The notes under the pieces are model-generated. The model searched no databases. It was given only the letters and a program-made list of their open reading frames with translations, and was not told where the DNA came from. A DNA stretch of 64,000 nt from Roseateles sp. (GTDB lineage Bacteria > Pseudomonadota > Gammaproteobacteria > Burkholderiales > Burkholderiaceae_C), in NCBI GenBank assembly GCA_016790285.1, contig JAEUPJ010000070.1, forward strand, positions 20,846 through 84,845, in the 5' to 3' direction. Both the position numbers and the translations under genes were made by a program. Shown piece by piece: positions 50,691 through 52,796 of this stretch (its first letter is position 1; each line of letters starts with the position of its first letter).

Positions 50691-50736
50691 TGATCCACAG
50701 GTGATCCACAGGAGCTTGTGGATAACCTGTGGTTAA
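50691..50736. promoter_or_regulatory. Four-box DnaA-binding cluster, inverted pairs
   Basis: Two copies of TGATCCACA on the plus strand (50691-50699, 50702-50710) are followed on the minus strand by TTATCCACA (50717-50725, the perfect DnaA box) and TTAACCACA (50728-50736). Centres within each pair are 11 bases apart, one helical turn. The halves form a 16-base inverted repeat with a single mismatch. Adjacent AT-rich sequence (gttaaaaat) follows. No dnaA, dnaN or rpmH is near. Confidence 0.65.
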
Positions 50737-50807
50737 AAATCCTTGTTGGCAGCCTGCAACGGCCGGAAAACCAATGCTGGCGCGGTTTCCCGGCAGGGCC
50801 TTTTGGC

Positions 50808-50813
50808 TACAAT
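50808..50813 (+). promoter_or_regulatory. -10 box of the small RNA
   Basis: TACAAT matches the -10 consensus at five of six positions and lies six bases before the first paired base of the small RNA. No clear -35 hexamer is present at 16-18 bases (GTTTCC at best), so an activator or extended contacts may be needed. Confidence 0.5.
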
Positions 50814-50818
50814 GAAGG

Positions 50819-50883
50819 CCCAACAAGCAGTTGCCATACCTTTTGTTGGAAGGCACGTCGCCTCTTCGACGTGCCTTTTTTTT
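50819..50883 (+). ncRNA. Candidate small RNA of about 65 nucleotides upstream of lepA
   Basis: From a start predicted near 50819, CCAACAA (50820-50826) pairs perfectly with TTGTTGG (50843-50849). A 16-base single-stranded loop, gcagttgccatacctt, is exposed between them. The terminator stem follows at once: AGGCACGTCG (50851-50860) pairs with CGACGTGCCT (50867-50876), then eight T. Promoter, two compact hairpins and an uninterrupted U tail are the layout of Hfq-type bacterial sRNAs. There is no ORF in it. It is 105 bases before lepA and could alternatively be an attenuated leader of that gene, but the T run would end most transcripts. I do not recognise a described family. Confidence 0.65.
50851..50883 (+). 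terminator. Strong intrinsic terminator of the small RNA
   Basis: A perfect ten-pair GC-rich stem with a six-base loop (CCTCTT) and a run of eight T. It is the strongest intrinsic terminator in the window, yet no protein gene ends near it: mucD stops 380 bases upstream. Confidence 0.93.
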
Positions 50884-50987
50884 GTTTACGGCACGGCCCT
50901 CGCGGGCCTTCACATCGCTGCGCGATATGAGCCTTCAACGCAACGGCTTCGCCGTCGTGACCTCGGCCCCGCAGAGCAGCAGTCAGC

Positions 50988-52796
<1,809 letters not shown>

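Follow-up and report, generated by a model that had tools for sequence, protein, structure and literature searches.

A putative small RNA between mucD and lepA whose conserved loop is complementary to the start codons of nucleoid protein genes

In the window considered here, a 64 000-nt stretch of DNA from Roseateles sp., the frames which we take to be fabF, a short frame, rpoE, rseA, mucD, lepA, lepB, a short membrane protein and rnc follow one another in that order, and the gap between mucD and lepA raises the question of whether it holds a gene of its own and, if so, what that gene might do. An earlier note, made from the letters alone, had proposed an undescribed small RNA with a loop serving as a seed. 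Comparative evidence supports that proposal, the loop core fitting a constrained target site at the starts of unlinked genes.

The gap holds a 64-nt RNA gene, whose 5' end is deduced from the position of the −10 box, and the parts of the locus are collected in Table 1. The TACAAT box, the 7-pair hairpin with a 16-base loop, the 10-pair terminator and the overall length of 76 bases, counted with TACAAT and the final T included, are all present in the letters as they had been described. The distance from mucD, given as 380 bases, comes to 349 when counted from the mucD stop (50471) to the RNA start; on the other side, the ATG of lepA (50988) lies 104 bases past the RNA end. Hairpin 1 encloses the loop GCAGTTGCCATACCTT, and the terminator arms AGGCACGTCG and CGACGTGCCT occupy 50851–50876. 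There are indeed eight T, at 50876–50883, but they do not form a separate run, the first doubling as the last base of the stem. When the RNA of the window is folded, a single dominant structure of two separate hairpins is predicted (−27.4 kcal/mol, z −5.6), with none of 200 shuffled sequences doing as well. In this minimum-energy fold an additional A–U pair lengthens the stem of hairpin 1 and a 2-pair helix forms within the loop, with two bases of the loop core paired; thus the loop has the 16 bases claimed for it but is not fully open. Neither tRNA nor tmRNA was found in the window.

Table 1. Features of the mucD–lepA locus and candidate targets in the same genome (positions are those of the window; L numbers denote loci elsewhere in the genome)
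Feature	Location	Strand	Basis
Small RNA gene, about 64 nt	50820..50883	+	kept in 49/49 loci; 127/150 family genomes by model R3
Hairpin 1, arms CCAACAA (50820–50826) and TTGTTGG (50843–50849)	50820..50849	+	fold and pair conservation
Loop core GCAGTTGCCAT, reverse complement of ATGGCAACTGC; proposed seed	50827..50837	+	
Remaining loop plus the first base of the arm; its CCTT is able to pair with AAGG in the HC2 Shine–Dalgarno of the window's genome	50838..50843	+	predicted duplex
Intrinsic terminator and T run	50851..50883	+	sequence and stem changes
−10 box TACAAT	50808..50813	+	TACAAT 46, TAGAAT 2, TAAAAT 1 of 49 loci
Palindrome GTTG-N8-CAAC, possible regulator site, centred −67 from RNA start	50745..50760	.	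45/49 loci at −67 to −65
DnaA-box-like pair TGTGGATAA (50717–50725) and TGTGGTTAA (50728–50736), 11 bases apart	50717..50736	+	
Own-genome candidate target, HC2-type histone H1-like (PF07382)	L212		
Own-genome candidate target, SWIB-domain protein with Ala/Lys tail (PF02201)	L205		
Own-genome candidate target, MFS transporter	L201		

The RNA is widespread within one family, here taken to comprise the Comamonadaceae together with the relatives of Roseateles and Rubrivivax. Among 100 genomes, a 121-bp DNA query matched the genome of origin, in which there is one copy, 18 of the 19 further genomes of the genus and 30 of the 40 from other genera of the family, and it gave nothing below an E value of 0.03 in 40 genomes of other families. 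The sole genus member without the RNA (G017) is also without a lepA match, and the contig with the locus may therefore be missing. The covariance search that the earlier note had suggested gave no match to Rfam 15 at the gathering score across the whole window, and a model of our own (R3) was used to scan 399 genomes of the order and 150 of the family. In the order, 12 hits of at least 58 bits were obtained, all within the family; in the family, 129 of the 150 genomes were matched, 127 being left after two hits (G045 and G529, about 28 bits) were dropped as chance. Second, weak hits inside family genomes scored 28–36 bits. In the order's other families we saw no credible copy; R3 gave weak hits there in 21 genomes, at 37.1 bits or less. 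A look at these weak hits that set aside G312, G090 and G307 covered 18 loci (L062–L079), which were plain terminators wherever the hit region was viewed, and GCAGTTGCC was seen within none of these hits; L079, which is truncated by a contig end, was viewed off its hit and holds no GCAGTTGCC anywhere.

Alignment of the mucD–lepA gap, another check that had been suggested, places the −10 box, hairpin, loop core and terminator together before lepA in all 49 relatives. In the terminator stem, both partners have changed at five of the 10 pairs, though the innermost pair fails to form in 14 of the 31 distinct rows. In hairpin 1, the pairs of which were counted apart from the model alignment, where rows such as L044–L046 and L048 are slid, the five outer pairs form in every one of the 25 distinct hairpins, which represent 61 loci; compensatory double changes occur twice (L263 and L260), and two hairpins have G–U pairs. 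Absence of compensatory changes had been named as grounds for abandoning the RNA; such changes are present. The loop core is better conserved than the terminator stem, GCAGTTGCC occurring in 49 of 49 loci, in all 12 of the strong hits obtained in the order (two being repeats) and in 19 of 20 further family homologs read, out of 22 matched (L257 and L266 were left out). An altered loop, GCAGATGCC, is found in L264 (genome G505), and G472 is without the core.

The neighbourhood of the gene bears on whether it is primarily an independent RNA or part of lepA. Upstream, mucD was matched in 46 of the 49 fetched loci, the exceptions being two short loci (L006 and L011) and L025. Downstream, lepA follows directly on the same strand in all 49, from 0 to 119 nt past the T run. 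A further scan of named genomes used an exact pattern that demanded the loop core, and so says nothing on core conservation; it yielded at least 119 loci and, among the matches listed, 111 with lepA just downstream, seven near a locus end and L085, from a MAG labelled Terriglobales, without lepA. The genera among the matches listed include Acidovorax, Variovorax, Polaromonas, Comamonas, Delftia and Rhodoferax, as well as Limnohabitans, Roseateles, Rubrivivax, Ideonella and Aquabacterium. So constant a position 3' of the element, in both sets of loci, is what would be expected if the promoter mainly made lepA mRNA, with the hairpins setting read-through as a 5' leader or attenuator and the short RNA being a by-product. 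The T run in L030 touches the ATG of lepA and that in L028 ends 5 nt before it, so that expression of lepA there seems to need read-through. However, the distance to lepA varies freely while the RNA is tightly kept, no alternative antiterminator is seen in the fold of the window's RNA, and the match between the loop and the gene starts described below is left unexplained. A principal role as a lepA leader is therefore unlikely, although the element may have a second role of this kind, above all in L030 and L028.

For an independent RNA, the loop is the part that points to a function. Nearly every copy read has the same core, GCAGUUGCC(A), whose reverse complement is (A)UGGCAACUGC, and the corresponding 11-mer, made up of AUG and codons 2–4, opens genes for non-homologous nucleoid proteins, namely histone H1-like HC2 proteins, SWIB-domain proteins and tailed HU-like proteins. 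In the window's own genome, TGGCAACTGC occurs at 16 sites, one being the RNA itself, compared with eight for a reversed control pattern, and three of the 15 non-self sites are ATG starts reading ATGGCAACTGC. Elsewhere, the 11-mer starts H1-like, SWIB and HU-like (PF00216) genes in G029 and G485, H1-like and SWIB genes in G022 and G494, and an H1-like gene alone in G505. The same start opens an MFS transporter without an Ala/Lys tail in four genomes, i.e. L201 (G000), L408 (G475), L411 (G553) and L415 (G528), and this transporter is possibly a further target. A search for the 11-mer behind AGGA, with the first base of codon 5 other than A, returned 12 cases in 10 of the 150 genomes, presumably three MFS transporters, two SWIB-domain proteins, one each of an ABC ATPase-like and an Ala/Lys-tailed protein, and five frames that are short or doubtful. 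In a single case (L289 in G022), an IclR-type regulator also opens with ATGGCAACTGC.

The codons at these starts are more uniform than the protein sequence demands. A search for MATAKKA starts, free as to synonymous codons, matched 120 of the 150 family genomes, and rows for codons 2–3 were taken from 118 genomes plus G039 (GCA-ACT), with three rows of G408 left out. GCA-ACT is used in 159 of 162 MATAKK rows from 106 genomes with the RNA, in 9 of 15 rows from 10 family genomes with lepA read and no RNA, in all three rows from two genomes in which lepA was not found, and in 4 of 14 rows from other families (13 of 243 genomes). Fisher tests give 9e-6 against the RNA-lacking genomes and 4e-11 against other families, values that are not corrected for relatedness, the genomes not being independent. 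Departing starts thus make up 6 of 15 rows without the RNA versus 3 of 162 with it (in G491, G482 and G532), a pattern in keeping with constraint being relaxed once the loop is lost, though GCA-ACT is still kept in 9 of the 15. The two genomes with altered loops, G505 and G472, were counted as RNA-positive and retain GCA-ACT in spite of their loops. After codon 5 of these genes, Ala is encoded by GCA in 14.6 % of cases and Thr by ACT in 8.4 %, as counted over 64 different coding sequences, of which 16 are H1-like, 43 SWIB and 5 HU-like. The wobble positions of 63 sequences have an entropy of 0.39 bit at codon 2, 0.12 bit at codon 3 and 1.17 bit at codon 4, and of 1.5–1.9 bit at four-fold sites from codon 7. 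The synonymous constraint therefore ends where complementarity ends; in other words, the constraint on the target starts and stops with complementarity to the conserved loop. Co-variation between loop and target was not found: a loop fitting the changed starts was sought in the RNA-lacking G465 and G542 and not seen, and the H1-like start of G505 has no change matching its altered loop. In the RNA-lacking loci L360–L376 (e.g. in G465, G471, G544 and G056), a TACAAT box and a terminator are retained between mucD and lepA with other sequence between them, and the RNA may have been replaced in these genomes rather than deleted.

Codon uniformity of this kind might have arisen without the RNA, if ATGGCAACTGC starts were kept for translation efficiency, or spread as a common N-terminal module, and the loop matched them by coincidence. 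A-rich codons following AUG are often favoured, the target genes share MATAKK and Ala/Lys-rich tails such that a common origin of their N-termini is possible, and the persistence of GCA-ACT in RNA-lacking family genomes is in keeping with such an origin. Yet variation is free from codon 4 onward, RNA-lacking genomes and other families depart from the start much more often, the MFS transporter shares it without having the tail, and the bases conserved in the RNA are the very ones constrained in the targets, all of which makes coincidence distinctly unlikely.

The reading preferred here, and one that we hold to be quite probable, is that the gene encodes a trans-acting small RNA whose loop masks the start codon of nucleoid protein mRNAs and represses their translation. 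The conserved −10 promoter would give rise to an independent transcript of about 64 nt, ended by its own terminator, in which hairpin 1 would display the loop core GCAGUUGCC(A)(U) for pairing over 10–11 bp with (A)UGGCAACUGC. The region paired would be the start codon and codons 2–4 of mRNAs for basic nucleoid proteins, i.e. HC2, SWIB-domain proteins with an Ala/Lys-rich tail and tailed HU-like proteins, together with the MFS transporter in a few genomes; the loop's CCUU could also cover AAGG of the HC2 Shine–Dalgarno in the window's genome, albeit from a stretch of the RNA (50838–50843) that is without conservation in a second clade. Since AUG and codons 2–4 lie inside the ribosome footprint, blocked initiation is the natural reading, so that pairing would prevent 30S initiation and less nucleoid protein would be made; from this we infer repression rather than activation, just as transcription, pairing in the cell and the physiological use are inferred. 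Predicted loop–target duplexes have energies of −20.3 to −22.6 kcal/mol. For a background of 761 partly redundant gene starts, the first percentile lies at −19.1 kcal/mol and the best value at −21.3 kcal/mol, and with the best 1 % so near the targets, duplex energy alone is weak evidence. In favour of a trans-acting RNA are the conserved −10 box and terminator, with no −35 found and no reading frame needed, and a conserved seed complementary to the ribosome-binding regions of unlinked mRNAs. The T run is compatible with binding of Hfq or ProQ, this being a feature of the sequence alone.

Start-codon masking of this kind has a precedent in IhtA of Chlamydia trachomatis, which is described, in passages of PMC4355289, as an Hfq-independent RNA of 107 nt with three stem–loops, a 7-nt site (CAUGGCG) and a second target, its loop 1 occluding the AUG of hctA, the gene for the histone-like protein HctA, which it represses. 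Likenesses to that account are a hairpin loop over the AUG of a histone-like mRNA (here as complementarity only), an intrinsic terminator and a further target. The present RNA differs in having 64 nt, two hairpins, a 10–11-nt site (AUGGCAACUGC), a mucD–lepA locus and several non-homologous nucleoid targets. IhtA thus makes the mechanism credible by analogy; the two are unrelated by position and layout, and no homology is claimed. Two RNAs of the Burkholderiales were also compared. S17 of Bordetella pertussis, as presented in passages of PMC11722255, is flanked by a glycosyltransferase gene and coq7 and has an active short form processed by RNase E; the two have in common a single-stranded pairing region that is conserved, along with numerous predicted targets, whereas the RNA described here is flanked by mucD and lepA and has its promoter 6 nt ahead of it. 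NcS25 of Burkholderia cenocepacia, in passages of PMC10117139, is a conserved small RNA of 84 nt beside a porin gene, with a porin target, is found in Burkholderia, Paraburkholderia and Pandoraea, and is likewise thought to block the Shine–Dalgarno/start region of its target. Position and targets, as given in those passages, rule out both as the identity of the RNA. The passages of the B. pertussis small RNA survey PMC3110155 hold nothing on lepA or mucD, and no published report of a mucD–lepA RNA was noticed among the best-ranked results in the open literature, subscription papers being mostly outside that scope. Below the gathering scores, Rfam ncr1241 (25.3 bits against 60) and suhB/mmgR (15.5 against 41) share two hairpins including a terminator and were rejected as chance-level matches of layout.

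Upstream of the RNA, the −10 box stands 6 nt from the RNA start (CCAAC) in 48 of the 49 loci and 7 nt in one; no −35 box is recognizable, a two-box promoter scan giving no sites. DnaA-box-like sites (TTWTNCACA) number 47 in the 49 loci against 1.3 expected, and the relaxed site TGTDNAWAA occurs around −102 in 41 loci and around −91 in 23, with 47 having it in at least one of the two places and 17 in both, which suggests a link between the promoter and DnaA. That the element is merely the terminator region of mucD, behind which it lies in the same direction and with a textbook terminator at its end, is very improbable given the constant spacing of the −10 box, the palindrome and paired boxes at fixed upstream distances, and a loop core better conserved than the terminator stem.

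Taken further, the masking RNA may be one whose single 11-letter antisense tag co-represses H1-like HC2, SWIB-domain and tailed HU-like proteins via their start codons, under a promoter whose DnaA-box-like sites and palindrome couple chromosome packing to replication or growth state, making it a convergent counterpart of IhtA; this fuller picture is tentative and, as a whole, rather doubtful. If it is true, widespread environmental betaproteobacteria would govern histone-like proteins by one dedicated RNA, with rare codons fixed at unrelated gene starts to preserve its target site, and the H1-like, SWIB and tailed HU-like proteins would constitute a named, testable regulon. It would also be a second, independent case of start-codon-masking RNA control over histone-like proteins, and the removal or overexpression of 64 nt would offer a simple handle on nucleoid compaction.

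Next to the gene, on the reverse strand at 50970–51076, Rfam AsrC is matched below its threshold (28.3 bits against 111, E 6.6e-6); the match runs antisense to the 5' end of lepA, which is conserved, and probably reflects coding similarity.
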